Positions 1,607 to 49,873 of a stretch of DNA of 64,000 nt are shown in pieces. The position numbers and the translations under genes are program-made. Within the stretch, counting starts at the first letter, position 1. Every line of letters begins with the position of its first letter. The notes beneath the pieces are model-generated. The model searched no databases, was not told the DNA's origin, and saw only the letters and a program-made list of their open reading frames with translations. This DNA is from Candidatus Brocadia sapporoensis (GTDB lineage Bacteria; Planctomycetota; Brocadiia; Brocadiales; Brocadiaceae), in contig NZ_MJUW02000108.1 in NCBI RefSeq assembly GCF_001753675.2, forward strand, positions 1-64,000. The letters run 5' to 3'.

Positions 1607-2989
1607 ATGCGTAACATATCATGGATGAAATTAAAATCTCTCGGATGGCTCATATTATATGGCCTCCCACTGGTTTTCTTTTGTATGCGTAATTCACATG
1701 CAGGCGATTCCAACGGTGCATTGACATTTTCTCTAAGTCTTGAAGGATTAAATGTCGCAGGAAATTTTGTTTGGGTGCTCATGGCAGCCTTCCTTATCCT
1801 GTTTATGCAGGCAGGATTTGTATTGTTGGGTGGACTTGTTAATTCCAAAAATATGCTCAGCTACATGACGCATTGCTTTATGGCAACGACGGCAGGCACC
1901 CTTATTTTTTGGCTCTTTGGTTTTGCTTTGATGTTCGGGGGTTCTGAACTTGGATCCGGGCTTGACAAGGGCAATTCCTTCATTGGCTACAGCGGTTTTA
2001 TGCTTCTCGGAGAGACTTACGATGTAAAAACCGTTTTACTCTTTGTCTTCATGGCTGTTGTTGCGACATTTATTGGTAGTATTATAGCCGGTGCTATAGC
2101 AGAAAGGATGAAATTCTCCGCTTATTTACTGGCGTGTTTTCTCGTGTATACCCTTGTTTATTCTTTCTATGGTCATTGGGTATGGGGTGAGGGTTGGCTG
2201 GCAAAGTTACCGTTTGGTGTCGGCGCCAAGGATTTTGCCGGTTCCGGTGTTGTACATGCAGCCGGTGGAATATGTGCCTTTATGGGTGCGTGGGCATTAG
2301 GTCCAAGAATCGGCAGATTTAACCCGGATGGTTCCGCGAATGCCTTACCAGGTCACAATATTGCTTATGTAATTCTTGGGACAATTATCCTTGCCTTTGG
2401 ATGGCTTGCTTATGATGCCGGAAGTACGCTTGCGATATCGGACTTGAGGTCTTCAATTATTGCAGCCAATACCTTTCTTTCTGGTGTCGCTGGTGCTGTT
2501 ATTGTCATCCTATATTACTACATAAAGACAAAAAAGGTCAATGTAGCCGAGGCATGTAACGGTTCTCTGGCTGGTTTTGTGGCGATTTCAGGGCCATGTG
2601 CATATGTTGCACCCTGGGCTGCCGTCATTATTGGAATTGCTGGGGGTTTGTTGATGTGCTGGTCCACGTGGCTGATTGAACACAAATTCAGGGTAGATGA
2701 TCCGCTTGGAGCAGTATCTGTCCATGGGGCTAACGGTCTATGGGGACTTCTCGCAGTCGGCATATTTGCTGATGGTTCATATGGTAATGTAAATGGATTA
2801 ATTACGGGTTCCGGGCAACAATTCTTTGCTCAGCTTATTGCTTTTCTCGCTGTCATTGTGTGGGCAGGTGGACTTGGCTTTGCCATTTTCTTCGGATTGA
2901 AACATACCATTGGCATAAGAGTCTCCAAAACAGAGGAAATTGACGGTCTGGATATTAATATCCATGGCACCAAATGTTATCCTTCATAA
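1607..2989 (+). CDS. amtB: Ammonium transporter AmtB/Amt family
   Basis: A 460-residue membrane channel for NH4+/NH3. An upstream in-frame ATG at 1517 exists, but ATG 1607 has a purine-rich ribosome site (AAGAAAGGAA, 1591-1600) and is followed by a plausible signal sequence (GWLILYGLPLVFF, then a cleavable SHAGD region), as in other Amt proteins. About eleven membrane segments follow. Family hallmarks are GHWVWGEGWL and DFAGSGVVHAAGG, which carry the conserved transport aspartate and first pore histidine, and SVHGANGLWG, which carries the second pore histidine. The C-terminal tail (VSKTEEIDGLDINIHGTKCYP) has the conserved EExxGLDxxxHG motif through which PII proteins regulate. The adjacent PII gene is broken, so any PII control must come from elsewhere. 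Function is clear from sequence. Confidence 0.95.
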   Translation: MRNISWMKLKSLGWLILYGLPLVFFCMRNSHAGDSNGALTFSLSLEGLNVAGNFVWVLMAAFLILFMQAGFVLLGGLVNSKNMLSYMTHCFMATTAGTLIFWLFGFALMFGGSELGSGLDKGNSFIGYSGFMLLGETYDVKTVLLFVFMAVVATFIGSIIAGAIAERMKFSAYLLACFLVYTLVYSFYGHWVWGEGWLAKLPFGVGAKDFAGSGVVHAAGGICAFMGAWALGPRIGRFNPDGSANALPGHNIAYVILGTIILAFGWLAYDAGSTLAISDLRSSIIAANTFLSGVAGAVIVILYYYIKTKKVNVAEACNGSLAGFVAISGPCAYVAPWAAVIIGIAGGLLMCWSTWLIEHKFRVDDPLGAVSVHGANGLWGLLAVGIFADGSYGNVNGLITGSGQQFFAQLIAFLAVIVWAGGLGFAIFFGLKHTIGIRVSKTEEIDGLDINIHGTKCYPS

Positions 2990-3319
2990 GAGAAAAATAG
3001 TGAAGTACTCTTAAGTTTTTTGTAAGCAACAGATTGCTTCACTGTCGCTCCACTCCTCGTAATGACGTTTGCTTGTGTACAGGTTTTATGAAACGTTATG
3101 CTAGGGGGTTATTTTAGTATTACATCATAACACAGCAAAACCGCAACCAAATCCCCCCACTAACAAGTGGGACAAAAGGGGTGTTGATCTTACTTCTGTA
3201 TGTATTGATCAGGGATTAGTTGCGGCGTTGCTGCTTTGGGAAATATCTCATTTGAGGTATGAAAAGTAAGGGATAATTCTAGGGTTAAATATTTTCGAAG
3301 AGCACATCCGGAAACGGGT
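2990..3319. other. Intergenic gap with one arm of a common bacterial intergenic repeat
   Basis: No gene is supported. Around 3027-3066 the sequence reads AACAGATTGCTTCACTGTCG followed by a CTCCTCGTAATGACG part. This is a variant of the palindromic intergenic repeat (AGATTGCTTCG...GCAATGACG) seen in many bacteria. I find only one arm, so it is probably a decayed copy. Confidence 0.4.
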
Positions 3320-36087: not shown

Positions 36088-36987
36088 ATGGAATACCTGG
36101 CAAACGATCTTGTTCACATACCGGTATTAGCTGAGGAAGTGCTGAATTATTTACAACCACAGTCAGGGCATATTATTTTAGACTGCACCATTGGTAATGG
36201 CGGGCATGCAATTAAAATATTAGAGAAAATAAAGTCTGGTGGATTTCTGGTTGGCATTGATAAGGATATGGAAATATTACAAATTGCAAAGCAAAATCTA
36301 TCAAAAACTGCGGGTACTTTTAAGCTTTATCATACGGATTATTCCGAGGTTGAGAGAGTATTGCATCAGGCTGGAGTAGAGAGGGTTAACGGAGTATTGC
36401 TTGATTTGGGAGCGTCTTCAATGCAGTTTGATCAGGCGGAGCGGGGTTTCAGCTTTGCTAAGGATGGGCCACTTGACATGAGGATGGATCGGTCTCTGCC
36501 CGGTACTGCACGGGATTTAATCAGAAGGTTGTCTGAACGGGAATTGGAAGAGATATTGAAAAAATATGGTGAAGAGCGATGGTCGAAAAGGATTGCAAGA
36601 GCAGTCCAAAGAGGGGAAAAGGAGGGTGGGATTACTTCAACACGGCAACTGGCTGCAGTCGTTGAACGAGTTGTACCACGAGGAAAAAGCAAAATTCATC
36701 CTGCAACAAGAGTATTTCAGGCACTGAGAATTGCGGTGAATAAGGAACTGGAGAGTTTGGAAGTTTTTTTAGATAAAATCCATAACTATATGCAGATAGG
36801 GGCTCGCATTGTAATTATCAGTTTTCATTCTCTTGAGGATCGTATCGTAAAGAAGAAATTCATGGAAAGAGCGAATCATAAGGTATTCAAGATACTTACA
36901 AAGAAGCCGGTGACTCCCGGTGAGGCGGAGTTAGAAAAAAACGTCCGATGCAGGAGCGCAAAACTTAGAGCGGCAGAAAGGATTTAA
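36088..36987 (+). CDS. rsmH: 16S rRNA (cytosine-1402-N4)-methyltransferase
   Basis: A 299-residue methyltransferase (MraW) for 16S rRNA position 1402. It shows HIPVLAEEVLNYL at the start, the SAM loop DCTIGNGGHA near 33-42, VLLDLGASSMQFDQAERGFSF near 99-119, DGPLDMRMD near 121, HPATRVFQALRIAVNKEL near 209 and the C-terminal SFHSLEDRIVK. All family blocks are present. It follows mraZ by 59 bases and ends one base before ftsL. Confidence 0.95.
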   Translation: MEYLANDLVHIPVLAEEVLNYLQPQSGHIILDCTIGNGGHAIKILEKIKSGGFLVGIDKDMEILQIAKQNLSKTAGTFKLYHTDYSEVERVLHQAGVERVNGVLLDLGASSMQFDQAERGFSFAKDGPLDMRMDRSLPGTARDLIRRLSERELEEILKKYGEERWSKRIARAVQRGEKEGGITSTRQLAAVVERVVPRGKSKIHPATRVFQALRIAVNKELESLEVFLDKIHNYMQIGARIVIISFHSLEDRIVKKKFMERANHKVFKILTKKPVTPGEAELEKNVRCRSAKLRAAERI

Positions 36988-36988
36988 T

Positions 36989-37357
36989 ATGGGAATATCA
37001 AGAATGTTATTGATGTTTACTATTACCGTCTTTATGGCTATTTTTGTCGTATCAGAGCGGAATAAAATTATCGAAACAGGGTACATCGTGGCGAAATTGC
37101 AAAGGAATTGTGATGAGCTATCAGAGAAGAACAGAAAGCTGGGCTACTATGTTGATCGGTTAAAATCTCCTGAGGTTATTGTCTATAAGGTACTATCTCT
37201 AAAACTGCCTCTGGTTCCCCAGGAAGACGAATCCGGGATGATTGCCGGACGCATAAAACTGAAAGATGATGTAAGGAAGGCAATGAAAACGGTTGTTCAC
37301 AAAGATATATTTACGCAAAAGGTGTCCAGACTGGAGTGTTGTTCATTGCATAATTAA
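36989..37357 (+). CDS. ftsL: Cell division protein FtsL-like
   Basis: A 122-residue bitopic membrane protein: N-terminal membrane segment (LMFTITVFMAIFVVS), then a coiled coil (KLQRNCDELSEKNRKLGYYVDRL) with leucine heptads, as in FtsL. Sequence similarity is low as usual; position between rsmH and ftsI, size and layout make the call. FtsL with FtsB and FtsQ activates FtsWI. AAGGA precedes ATG. The C-terminal 40 residues beyond the coiled coil, ending in two cysteines, are longer than in typical FtsL. Confidence 0.8.
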   Translation: MGISRMLLMFTITVFMAIFVVSERNKIIETGYIVAKLQRNCDELSEKNRKLGYYVDRLKSPEVIVYKVLSLKLPLVPQEDESGMIAGRIKLKDDVRKAMKTVVHKDIFTQKVSRLECCSLHN

Positions 37358-37358
37358 A

Positions 37359-37502
37359 ATGTCGGGTGTTTCGTGGCTTATGTTGTGCCCTCCTCCCGGA
37401 CGCTTTTGGGGCAAAGTTGTTTTTTGTCTCGAAAGCGTCCGTAAATATTTTATTTACCTTTTTGATTTAGTTTCATACGCCTTTGTGGGAGTGTCAGCGT
37501 GA
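37359..37502 (+). CDS. Possible 47-residue protein between ftsL and ftsI
   Basis: A reading frame starting ATG one base after the ftsL stop and ending in a TGA that overlaps the ftsI GTG start (GTGA), so it fills the gap between the two genes exactly. It begins MSGVSWLMLCPPPGRF and ends in a hydrophobic stretch (YFIYLFDLVSYAFVGVSA) that could be a membrane helix. No ribosome site of its own is clear, but coupling to ftsL is possible. The same DNA can form a 10-bp hairpin. Codon use is not clearly diagnostic. Confidence 0.4.
   Translation: MSGVSWLMLCPPPGRFWGKVVFCLESVRKYFIYLFDLVSYAFVGVSA
37397..37441 (+). repeat. 10-bp perfect inverted repeat inside the dcw operon
   Basis: CGGACGCTTT (37397-37406) and AAAGCGTCCG (37432-37441) with a 25-base loop, 58 bases before ftsI. 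No T-run follows, so it is not a terminator. It may affect mRNA processing or translation of ftsI. Confidence 0.5.
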
Positions 37503-39214
37503 TACCATTAAGAAAGCACAAATTTTGGGCGAATATTACGGGTGTTTTTCTTGTCATTACGTTTCTTGCTTTAGCTGTTCATCTCGGGCATATTCAGTTA
37601 ATTGAGCATGATAAATACTGTAAATTAGCTAAAGGGCAGCAACGGAAGAAAATTGAGTTGCCTGCACGAAGGGGTACCATCCTTGATAGGAACGGGCTTA
37701 CCCTTGCAGACTCTTTACAGGTGTCATCTGTTTATGCCGATCCCGCAGAAATTGAAGACATTCCTACGGTAGCATATCATCTGAGTAAGGTATTAAAGCT
37801 GAGCTCTGCTAAGATAGCGAAACTCCTGAATAAGGATAAGCGATTTGTTTGGATTAAACGGAAAATTGGTGATGATGAGCTTCGTGCGGTCACGAAATTG
37901 CCTCTAAAAGGGGTCTATACAAAACACGAGTATCATCGTTTTTATCCTAACGGGAGATTGGGGAGTCACGTTCTTGGCTTCACCAATATTGACGAGAGAG
38001 GACTCGAAGGAGTTGAGCTTTCCTTTAATGACGTATTGTCAGGAGAACCAGGGTATAAACTGATCAATCGTGATGCGCTGCAACGTCAGATCGTCACACC
38101 GGATGCAGAGATTCAGTTGCCCCGGCACGGAAACCAGGTTGTATTGACCATTGATGCCAACATCCAGCGCTTTACGGAAGAAGAGCTTGAAATTGCTTTT
38201 GATAAATGGAAGCCAGTGTCTGCCACAGCGGTTGTTATGAATCCCATGACCGGTGAAGTGCTGGCAATGGCCAATTATCCTTCATTTGATCCAAACCATT
38301 TCGAAAAATATCCTTCATATGCAAGGAGAAATTTAGCTGTCACGGATTGCTATGAGCCGGGTTCATTAATGAAACCCATCGTGGTTTCTGGCGTCTTTGA
38401 GCACGGGTTGGCGAGACCTGACGAAGTTATTTATTGCGAAAACGGCGCTGCTGTGATAGAGGGGAGAAGTTTGCACGATGCCCATGAATACGGGAATCTT
38501 ACGATTTCTGATGTTATTGCACATTCAAGTAATATAGGAATGGCTAAAGTGGGATTGCGAATGGGAAATGAAAAGATGTACCGGTACCTTAAGCAATTCA
38601 AGTTTGGCGTGAAAACAGGGATCGAACTTCCAGGTGAAATAGGAGGTGTTTTTCATCCTCTGAAACAATGGTCGAAGAAATATTCTCTTATATCGGTTTC
38701 AATCGGGCATGAGATTGCGGTTACCCCGCTCCAGTTTCTTACGGCTTTTTGCTGCATCCCAAACGGTGGACAATTGATCAGGCCGAAGATTATTAAGGCA
38801 ACAATAAGCAATGGTAATACGAGAAAAGAATGTTTCCAATCTTCGCAAGGTGTTGAACGAGTAATGAGTTCACATGTTGCACGCACAATTATGAATCCCA
38901 TACTGATGAAGGTTGTTACCGATGGCACCGGAGAGAACGCGAAGCTTCTGGAATATGATGTTGCTGGAAAGACGGGGACATCACAGAAAGTCTTCAGTGG
39001 CGGGAGATATTCTCATGATAAACATGTCGGATCTTTTATTGCCTATGCGCCTGCCGAGCGTCCCCGCATTTGTGTGCTGGTTATGATCAACGAGCCTCAA
39101 AGCAGGGAGTACTATGGTGGTACAGTTGCAGCCCCCGTCGTCAGGGAAATTATTCTACGGTCGCTTGTTTATCTTGGTGAGGAGCCATCCAGGTTTAAAA
39201 TGGCAATGCAATGA
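37499..39214 (+). CDS. ftsI: Peptidoglycan transpeptidase FtsI (PBP3-like)
   Basis: A 571-residue class B penicillin-binding protein that crosslinks septal peptidoglycan. It has an N-terminal membrane anchor (about 12-30), a pedestal domain starting ARRGTILDRNG, and a transpeptidase domain with all catalytic motifs: S289-L-M-K292 (in YEPGSLMKP; most relatives have STxK), S343-S-N345 and K491-T-G493. All active-site residues are present, so it should be active. The start is GTG 37499 after GGGAG. FtsI is absent from most planctomycetes other than the anammox group, so its presence with the full Mur set indicates a peptidoglycan wall. Confidence 0.95.
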   Translation: MIPLRKHKFWANITGVFLVITFLALAVHLGHIQLIEHDKYCKLAKGQQRKKIELPARRGTILDRNGLTLADSLQVSSVYADPAEIEDIPTVAYHLSKVLKLSSAKIAKLLNKDKRFVWIKRKIGDDELRAVTKLPLKGVYTKHEYHRFYPNGRLGSHVLGFTNIDERGLEGVELSFNDVLSGEPGYKLINRDALQRQIVTPDAEIQLPRHGNQVVLTIDANIQRFTEEELEIAFDKWKPVSATAVVMNPMTGEVLAMANYPSFDPNHFEKYPSYARRNLAVTDCYEPGSLMKPIVVSGVFEHGLARPDEVIYCENGAAVIEGRSLHDAHEYGNLTISDVIAHSSNIGMAKVGLRMGNEKMYRYLKQFKFGVKTGIELPGEIGGVFHPLKQWSKKYSLISVSIGHEIAVTPLQFLTAFCCIPNGGQLIRPKIIKATISNGNTRKECFQSSQGVERVMSSHVARTIMNPILMKVVTDGTGENAKLLEYDVAGKTGTSQKVFSGGRYSHDKHVGSFIAYAPAERPRICVLVMINEPQSREYYGGTVAAPVVREIILRSLVYLGEEPSRFKMAMQ

Positions 39215-39324
39215 TTGTGTCAACTCATGCTGTGCTCGTGCACAAAAAAGATGCGATCATGCCGAAAACAAGATTCTCTGTGATAAAGTATGTGAAATAT
39301 CCGGGTTGGCCTGATATGTGCTGA
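39211..39324 (+). CDS. Possible 37-residue reading frame after ftsI
   Basis: An ATG overlaps the ftsI stop codon (ATGA) and opens a 37-codon frame (MIVSTHAVLVHKKDAIMPK at the start) that stops four bases before the strong ribosome site of the next gene. The tight overlap suggests translational coupling, but the product is short, its own ribosome site is weak, and no family is recognised. Confidence 0.3.
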   Translation: MIVSTHAVLVHKKDAIMPKTRFSVIKYVKYPGWPDMC

Positions 39325-39342
39325 ATTGAGGAGGAAAAGACG

Positions 39343-39639
39343 ATGCAAAAAGAAATCGAAAAGCAGAAGCCTGTTTTGAGACACAATTGGTATAAAACGG
39401 AAAAAGAGCTTGAAGTGACCCTGACGTACAATCGAGAGATTTTGGACAAGCTTTTGCGGGAATATGCCGGCGAAGTAGATAAGGTGAACAAAAAGAGATA
39501 TGTAAACGAACGAATCATTCGGCCGGGAAGTGCGAAACATCAGGGTTTCGATGCAACCTTGAAAATGAATTTTTTCTCTCCGTCAAGGGAAAAGTGGAAT
39601 TTTGCAGAAAGCAAGGTAGATGTTTACAAGATTAAGTGA
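39343..39639 (+). CDS. Small basic protein of unknown function between ftsI and murE
   Basis: A 98-residue soluble protein starting MQKEIEKQKPVLRHNWYKTE. The ribosome site is excellent (GAGGAGG, eight bases before ATG), and its end overlaps the murE start by 20 bases, so it is embedded in the operon. It is rich in Lys, Arg and Glu, has one likely long helix (ILDKLLREYAGEVDKVNKKR) and an aromatic C-terminal part (MNFFSPSREKWNF). It has no membrane segment, signal or cysteine. I do not recognise the family. Its place in a division cluster suggests a role in septal wall synthesis. Confidence 0.75.
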   Translation: MQKEIEKQKPVLRHNWYKTEKELEVTLTYNREILDKLLREYAGEVDKVNKKRYVNERIIRPGSAKHQGFDATLKMNFFSPSREKWNFAESKVDVYKIK

Positions 39640-41089
39640 CCTTTGTTCCTGTTTGAAAGAATGCCAGTCTTGTAATTTTGTGGAAAAAGAAGTATATGGC
39701 ATAACACACGACTCCCGAAAGGTAAAGAAGGGTTATGTGTTTGTTGCTGTTCAAGGCCACAAGATCGACGGGCATGAATTTGTTGCAAATGCAATTGAGA
39801 ATGGGGCTATTGCCCTTGTTGTAGAAAAAAAAATTGAAGATGCTACAGAAATACCTCAGATTATAGTGCCGAATACACGTTTTGCACTTGCCGTCATGAG
39901 TAGCCGTTTTTATGGAGAACCTTCTTCGCGGATGACGGTGATTGGCATTACGGGAACGAACGGGAAAACGACAACCTCCTATCTTACAAAGTCAATTATC
40001 AATGCCTCTGGTAATGAAACAGGACTGATTGGTACAATTCAGTATCAGATGGGCAGCAGAGCAATACCTGCACGGGAAACAACGCCTGAATCTGCGGAAC
40101 TGCATGGGTATTTCGCTGAGATGCTTGAATCAGGCATAAAATATGCGGTAATAGAGGTATCCTCTCATGCCCTTTCTCAGTTTCGTATAGAAGGGGTTTG
40201 TTTTCGTTCTGCAATCTTTACGAACTTATCTGTTGAGCACCTTGATTATCATACGAATATCCAAAATTACAGAAATGAAAAACTCAAACTGGTAAAGCGG
40301 CTAGGTCCTGATGCGTTTGCGATATTGAATGCGGATGATAATGCCAGCAAACATTTTGCCGAGTGCACAAAATCTCAAATAGTTTGGTATGGTATAAAGA
40401 AAAAGAATGCTGAAGTGACTGCCGAAATACTTCAGACAAGCGTCAATGCAACACGAATATTGCTGAATTCTCCCTGGGGTAAAGTACCGATTCATTTGAA
40501 TTTGATCGGGAAGCATAATGTTTATAATGCAGTTGCAGCGGCAGCAAATGGATTAGCATTGGGTTTCAACATTGATACGGTAAAAACGGGTATTGAATCG
40601 TTACAAACGGTACCCGGACGCCTGGAAAAAATTGACTGTGGACAGGATTATCCTGTCTATGTTGATTTTGCCCATACTCATCAGGCGCTCCAGGTTGTTT
40701 TGCGTACCCTTCGGGATGTAGCGAAAGGACGTATTATCCTGGTTTTCGGATGTGGTGGTGATAGAGACCGGAAGAAAAGGCCAAAGATGGGGCATATTGC
40801 AGAAAAATATTCAGACCTTTTCTGGATAACCAGTGATAATCCGCGTTCAGAAGACCCCTCTCATATAATCTGCGAGATTCAAAGAGGAGTAAAGAAAGCA
40901 TCGTGTTTTCGAGTGCAGGCTGATAGAAAAACTGCTATTGAAGAAGCCATTTCAGAGGCGAAAAATGGTGATGTTGTGATCATTGCAGGAAAGGGTCATG
41001 AACAAAACCAGATAGCGAAGGGTGTCACAATGTCCTTTGATGATCGCGAGGTTGTAAGGCAAATTTTACAGAGAAGAATGGTATCGTAG
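39620..41089 (+). CDS. murE: UDP-MurNAc-tripeptide synthetase (meso-DAP adding)
   Basis: A 489-residue Mur ligase that adds the third amino acid to the peptidoglycan stem. It shows ITHDSRKVKKGYVFVAVQGHKIDGHEF near 29-55, the ATP loop GITGTNGKTTTSY near 110-122, TTPESAELH near 152-160, the carbamylated-lysine region DYHTNIQNYRNEKLKLV, and TSDNPRSEDP near 405-414. The DNPR motif is the signature of enzymes that add meso-diaminopimelate rather than lysine. GAAAGCAAGG lies before the ATG. It overlaps the preceding small gene by 20 bases and is followed by murF after 20 bases. Confidence 0.95.
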   Translation: MFTRLSDLCSCLKECQSCNFVEKEVYGITHDSRKVKKGYVFVAVQGHKIDGHEFVANAIENGAIALVVEKKIEDATEIPQIIVPNTRFALAVMSSRFYGEPSSRMTVIGITGTNGKTTTSYLTKSIINASGNETGLIGTIQYQMGSRAIPARETTPESAELHGYFAEMLESGIKYAVIEVSSHALSQFRIEGVCFRSAIFTNLSVEHLDYHTNIQNYRNEKLKLVKRLGPDAFAILNADDNASKHFAECTKSQIVWYGIKKKNAEVTAEILQTSVNATRILLNSPWGKVPIHLNLIGKHNVYNAVAAAANGLALGFNIDTVKTGIESLQTVPGRLEKIDCGQDYPVYVDFAHTHQALQVVLRTLRDVAKGRIILVFGCGGDRDRKKRPKMGHIAEKYSDLFWITSDNPRSEDPSHIICEIQRGVKKASCFRVQADRKTAIEEAISEAKNGDVVIIAGKGHEQNQIAKGVTMSFDDREVVRQILQRRMVS

Positions 41090-49787: not shown

Positions 49788-49873
49788 GCGGAAGTGGCGG
49801 AATCGGCAGACGCGCTAGTTTGAGGGGCTAGTGTCAATAAAACGACGTGGGGGTTCAAGTCCCCCCTTCCGCA
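49788..49873 (+). tRNA. tRNA-Leu (anticodon GAG)
   Basis: A class II tRNA of 86 bases. Acceptor GCGGAAG/CTTCCGC, anticodon stem CTAGT/GCTAG with loop TTGAGGG (anticodon GAG), long variable arm (TGTC..GACG region), T arm GGGGG-TTCAAGT-CCCCC, discriminator A. CCA is not encoded. Confidence 0.92.

Follow-up and report, generated by a model that had tools for sequence, protein, structure and literature searches.

The locus and its question

The dcw cluster in the window (the 64,000-nucleotide stretch of Candidatus Brocadia sapporoensis DNA analyzed here) raises the question of whether the small frames on both sides of ftsI are division genes of an anammox bacterium that lacks FtsZ. In these FtsZ-less bacteria, the septal transpeptidase gene is flanked by one conserved, unnamed protein (s98) and by one conserved RNA element, and the two are definite targets in the question of how anammox bacteria divide without FtsZ. 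The reading that we tentatively favor, at slightly less than even odds, is that s98, a real gene, codes for an operon-dedicated adaptor and that the RNA element sets ftsI expression; the two shorter frames are not genes.

The cluster is organized as mraZ, mraW, ftsL, ftsI, s98, murE, murF, mraY, ftsW, murG, murC, ddl, and a probable ftsQ. Family scans covered ftsL, ftsI, and the small frames; the remaining names come from open reading frames and gene order, and those of mraZ, mraW, murE, and murF also from homologous clusters in relatives. The ftsL gene (36989 to 37357, + strand; DivIC/FtsL-like, 122 codons) is named from its position between mraW and ftsI, its conserved synteny, and matches that are all below cut-off (DivIC, Pfam E 0.004; FtsL, NCBIfam E 0.008 to 0.014). 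The septal transpeptidase is encoded by ftsI (37499 to 39214, + strand, GTG start; Pfam Transpeptidase 1.1e-72 and PBP_dimer 1.7e-20), and murE (39620 to 41089, + strand), named by homology and dcw position, is an open reading frame whose homologues lie directly 3′ of s98 or ftsI in relatives.

Standard dcw clusters have ftsA and ftsZ at the position held here by a tRNA (49788 to 49873), which lies 3′ of the probable ftsQ and is followed by apparent secretion- or pilus-like genes. The genome (2.93 Mb, 99.1% complete) contains a hydrazine synthase alpha match and has no match to the tubulin family (PF00091), and thus belongs to an anammox bacterium without FtsZ, in agreement with the first-pass annotation, which had read the locus as lacking ftsZ. 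Most of the genomes compared are metagenome-assembled, and the labels Brocadiaceae and Scalindua-type rest on those records of the loci that carry names.

A conserved gene between ftsI and murE

The s98 gene (39343 to 39639, + strand; 98 codons) runs from an ATG at 39343 to a TGA at 39639, is preceded by GAGGAGGAAAAGACG, and overlaps murE (ATG 39620) by 20 bases, exactly as the first-pass annotation had placed it. Sequence searches identify homologues in relatives with up to 71% identity, and s98 lies 3′ of ftsI in every one of the 30 Brocadiaceae loci retrieved, that of the window among them; murE follows in 29 of these, the contig ending in the remaining one. Named records with s98 include Brocadia, Jettenia, Kuenenia, Loosdrechtia, and Scalindua. 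Scalindua-type loci keep the order ftsI-X-murE with an s98 homologue as X, and a further family has, in two genomes, a very divergent copy 3′ of ftsI, with murE 1.0 to 1.2 kb downstream. The dN/dS values (Nei-Gojobori, conserved core) are 0.13 to 0.21 between the window and its three nearest relatives, and range from 0.01 to 0.24 over 16 pairs. The product is small, without a long hydrophobic stretch, and its variable tail shows no conservation. Because of the syntenic homologues and the dN/dS of the nearest relatives, s98 stands above chance, and it is a real, conserved protein-coding gene under purifying selection. It had been called solid beforehand, and syntenic orthologues, a frame kept in relatives, and a dN/dS well away from 1 bear this out.

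The 20-base overlap with murE is variable between genomes and is no fixed feature, the distance between the two genes in Brocadiaceae ranging from -20 to +32. In the three nearest relatives the s98 stop lies directly before the murE ATG, and the overlap in the window is due to one extra base in its s98 tail; Jettenia and Loosdrechtia s98 genes also overlap murE by 20 bases. The dcw copy of s98 usually touches murE. The ftsI-s98 spacer (39215 to 39342) contains a block, AAAAGGAGGTGAT...TTGAAAA...TATGTGATAAAGTAT, that is common to many Brocadiaceae and degraded in the window; it is SD-like and promoter-like, without a conserved start codon.

A conserved RNA element upstream of ftsI

A single-copy element (37384 to 37453, + strand) is located between ftsL and ftsI, with CCUCCUCCC ahead of the hairpin and the layout GCCCTCCTCCC, a long hairpin (stem 37397 to 37441), and an A/T-rich tail. 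A covariance model, built from most of the sequences that it finds, matches the window (itself in the model) at 3.2e-20 and detects a single full copy per genome in 27 of the 33 Brocadiaceae genomes, with only one weak partial match in other families; in two genomes outside the model the element likewise lies between ftsL and ftsI. It is absent from the Jettenia and Loosdrechtia genomes and is therefore not indispensable. Four stem pairs show changes in both partners, and 97.9% of cells are paired; the two-sided changes, which are counts of sequences and not of events, amount to 20 cells where shuffling gives a mean of 4.9, and sliding the partner arm lowers pairing to 34 to 56%. RNA folding gives the window a z-score of -4.8 and a relative one of -6.3. 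The compensatory changes support a conserved structured RNA 5′ of ftsI, which could plausibly act as a leader or in the manner of an attenuator.

The 5′ arm of the long stem is also part of an alternative 7-bp hairpin, paired in 21 of 21 rows, with one compensatory change only; a two-state attenuator with two mutually exclusive hairpins is possible. In our favored reading, the hairpin would set ftsI expression within the operon through attenuation or RNA processing. It is also quite possible, if short of probable, that the hairpin is an ordinary weak terminator or an mRNA 3′-end stabilizer after ftsL with no regulatory switch: the long stem is far stabler than the alternative hairpin (-28.3 versus -8.2 kcal/mol), and the + strand terminator scan picks out a 20-bp stem with UAAAUAUUUU behind it, although chance alone would give 2.2 such sites in the region, which has 2. 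However, CCUCCUCCC is nearly invariant and the 5′ arm strictly conserved, which exceeds the needs of a plain stem, and one locus (L050) keeps the alternative hairpin by a two-sided change that costs one long-stem pair, a single event.

The element resembles attenuators and leader RNAs of cell wall operons in being an intergenic hairpin, with a possible exclusive alternative, before a cell wall gene, but it differs in its interrupted U-tract and in having no Rfam match (36900 to 39700) at E values up to 10. Alphaproteobacterial CCUCCUCCC (anti-Shine-Dalgarno) small RNAs also carry a CCUCCUCCC string near a stable stem, but these belong to a different phylum and the likeness is a resemblance only. 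The conserved, covarying hairpin is overlain by a 47-codon frame, something the first-pass annotation could not see.

The s98 family in other operons

The s98 protein belongs to an undescribed family that is confined to anammox bacteria in the searches made, as its earlier description as lineage specific had anticipated. Matches among 392 genomes of the phylum occur only in the window's order, and none of the members scanned reached a family in Pfam, NCBIfam, or PHROGs. Matches in Pirellula (30% identity; L116 to L118) were rejected as spurious, lying inside a different, longer protein. Within the same bacterial group, paralogues occupy the flagellin-fliD and fliD-fliS gaps of a fliC-X-fliD-X-fliS arrangement, lie between gas vesicle genes and beside dnaA, occur in Mu-like prophages, and stand alone near a rarA-like gene. 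In a tree of the family (59 columns, mixed support) the flagellar and dcw copies group mostly by operon and not by genome. By eye, the dcw copies share Q-x-[FY]-D-x-[TS]-L-x-I at the end of the conserved part, a motif not present in the short fliD-fliS copies.

A prophage-type copy (G000:C48:677-985; L066) is present in the genome of the window itself, where it adjoins a Mor-type activator gene, and one viral contig has a family member identical to the prophage copy of this genome. A viral origin of the family was considered and set aside, as phage records gave no usable match.

Since paralogues are present in non-division operons, the family is not, taken as a whole, a division-specific one, and their occurrence in other anammox operons and prophages suggests a set of operon-dedicated accessory proteins. 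The function and partners of s98 are what we infer throughout: family members would act by protein-protein contact with the products of neighboring genes, and the dcw copy may tune peptidoglycan precursor or septal synthesis, on the MurE or the FtsI side, without replacing FtsZ. Against such an adaptor role, the prophage, dnaA, and stand-alone copies do not suggest a single type of partner, an RNA- or DNA-binding regulator would give the same operon pattern, and the grouping by operon comes from a tree of only 59 columns.

Flagellar chaperones offer a partial parallel. FliS, FliT, and FlgN are small helical proteins encoded beside flagellin and FliD, and in Scalindua-type genomes two s98 paralogues flank fliD. 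However, s98 members have no match above threshold to the FliS, FliT, or FlgN family profiles (3 of the 45 members match FliT, all below threshold and at best with 0.059), and FliS and a FlgN-family protein are separately present in the same cluster as the flagellar paralogues.

We consider it unlikely that the family instead binds RNA or DNA and that each copy regulates its host operon. Small operon-embedded genes near flagellin, gas vesicle, dnaA, and prophage genes are a pattern typical of dedicated regulators, and the SD-like and promoter-like block 5′ of s98 is conserved in many genomes, but the members scanned match neither a helix-turn-helix nor an RNA-binding family in Pfam, NCBIfam, or PHROGs, the helix pattern is by eye unlike a classical helix-turn-helix, and s98 reads as not markedly basic. 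On the pattern and the lack of family matches, the reading of s98 as a helix-turn-helix protein was rejected.

s98 and the absence of FtsZ

The first-pass annotation had proposed that small proteins beside the septal transpeptidase, in a lineage without ftsZ, are candidate division factors, and location beside ftsI in ftsZ-less genomes and conservation across most anammox families do speak for s98 as a lineage-specific factor that organizes the septum in place of FtsZ. In 59 genomes from the order, no match rises to the tubulin cut-off. Among these bacteria is a sister family of small-genome relatives without ftsZ, 6 of 9 genomes of which have hydrazine synthase. In eight sister-family genomes the ftsI and murE matches are 47 to 128 bases apart with no gene between them, and the s98 profile has no match in the four that were searched. 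The junction described beforehand as empty in standard clusters is thus empty in this anammox family too. An unrooted tree of MraW, FtsI, and MurE groups the sister family with one biotin-carrier genome (support 83), apart from the rest, and one gain or one loss of s98 would fit this distribution. In the locus L142 (G034), from one genome of another family, the ftsI-murE junction is filled by a gene (2622 to 3080) that is biotin-carrier-like by sequence reading.

With no ftsZ and no gene between ftsI and murE in the sister family, the presence of s98 does not go along with FtsZ loss, and the simplest division-factor reading is weakened: a replacement for FtsZ should be present wherever FtsZ is missing in the lineage, and eight genomes have no gene at that junction. 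The step from a missing ftsZ to a division factor is further undercut by the paralogues at flagellar, gas vesicle, dnaA, and prophage loci, and the closest coupling of s98 is to murE, the gene of a precursor enzyme. A septum organizer standing in for FtsZ is therefore improbable.

Predicted fold and similarity to VEL domains

AlphaFold models predict a short, all-helical s98 core. The dcw copy is modeled as four helices and a disordered tail, with a pLDDT of about 90 in the conserved part, and a flagellar paralogue as a confident three-helix core (mean pLDDT 93.5). Fold searches with models of the family returned nothing convincing, and none of the fold matches of the core tells a binding partner.

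Profile searches gave one lead. A wide s98 profile run against the PDB (177,635 sequences) placed five plant VEL chains on top (E 3.7e-4 to 3.4e-3), the next match being at E 0.07; the reversed-sequence control of this profile gave a best E of 0.012. The hhalign probability for the family against VEL is 91 to 93%, and the Pfam family that most members match is VIN3_C, in every case below threshold. VEL domains (VIN3, VRN5, VEL1; PF23380) and the s98 family share [KR]-x-x-F-[IL]-x-W-Y-x-x-x-A-T-x-x-E-[IL] at a helix-cap-helix junction, and in our own mapping a conserved basic residue of the family aligns with VIN3 R554, on the head surface. VEL domains have four helices and form head-to-tail polymers (PMC7614096).

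It is nonetheless very improbable that the s98 core is a small bacterial VEL relative whose head-to-tail polymers scaffold operon products. The alignment covers only 22 to 31 residues, the curated VEL cut-off (PF23380) is reached by no protein in the 59 genomes, and a narrower s98 profile (E 0.0087) does no better than the reversed control. Foldseek with the good, three-helix model does not return VEL chains (the first model gave VEL structures at E 7.2, TM 0.2), and the paralogue core has three helices where VEL has four. The family, which is bacterial, thus differs from plant VEL domains in helix number and has neither a fold match nor a curated score, and the similarity is a lead, not membership. 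To the extension in which the proteins are VEL-like operon-dedicated scaffolds, with the dcw copy polymerizing beside FtsI and MurE and helping septal wall organization without FtsZ, we give slighter credence still.

The two micro-frames beside ftsI

The two shortest frames lie where the first-pass annotation had found them. The 47-codon frame (37359 to 37502, + strand) has its ATG at 37359, one base past the ftsL stop (37357), and its end overlaps the ftsI start (GTG 37499) as GTGA; the 37-codon frame (39211 to 39324, + strand) has its ATG at 39211 within an ATGA overlap at the ftsI stop. "Tentative," the grade that they had been given, was apt, for frame conservation fails in the nearest relatives. 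Two of these (L101 and L102) lack the ATG of the 47-codon frame, which also has stops in L102, and loop lengths differ by amounts that are not multiples of three. In L101 and L102 the 37-codon frame runs for 10 codons before it closes, and the ATGA at the ftsI stop is absent in L090, L092, L094, L095, and L100. That both encode real peptides can be dismissed: the frames are open in the window with neat ftsI overlaps, and tblastn with the 47-codon frame returns matches in relatives, but starts are lost, stops and loop indels break the frames, and the apparent conservation is explained by the hairpin, with its covarying pairs, that underlies it. Judged by comparison of the sequences, neither micro-frame is a gene. 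In one Scalindua sediminis-type locus (L032), the ftsL-ftsI gap contains by eye an apparent histidine-kinase ATPase frame.
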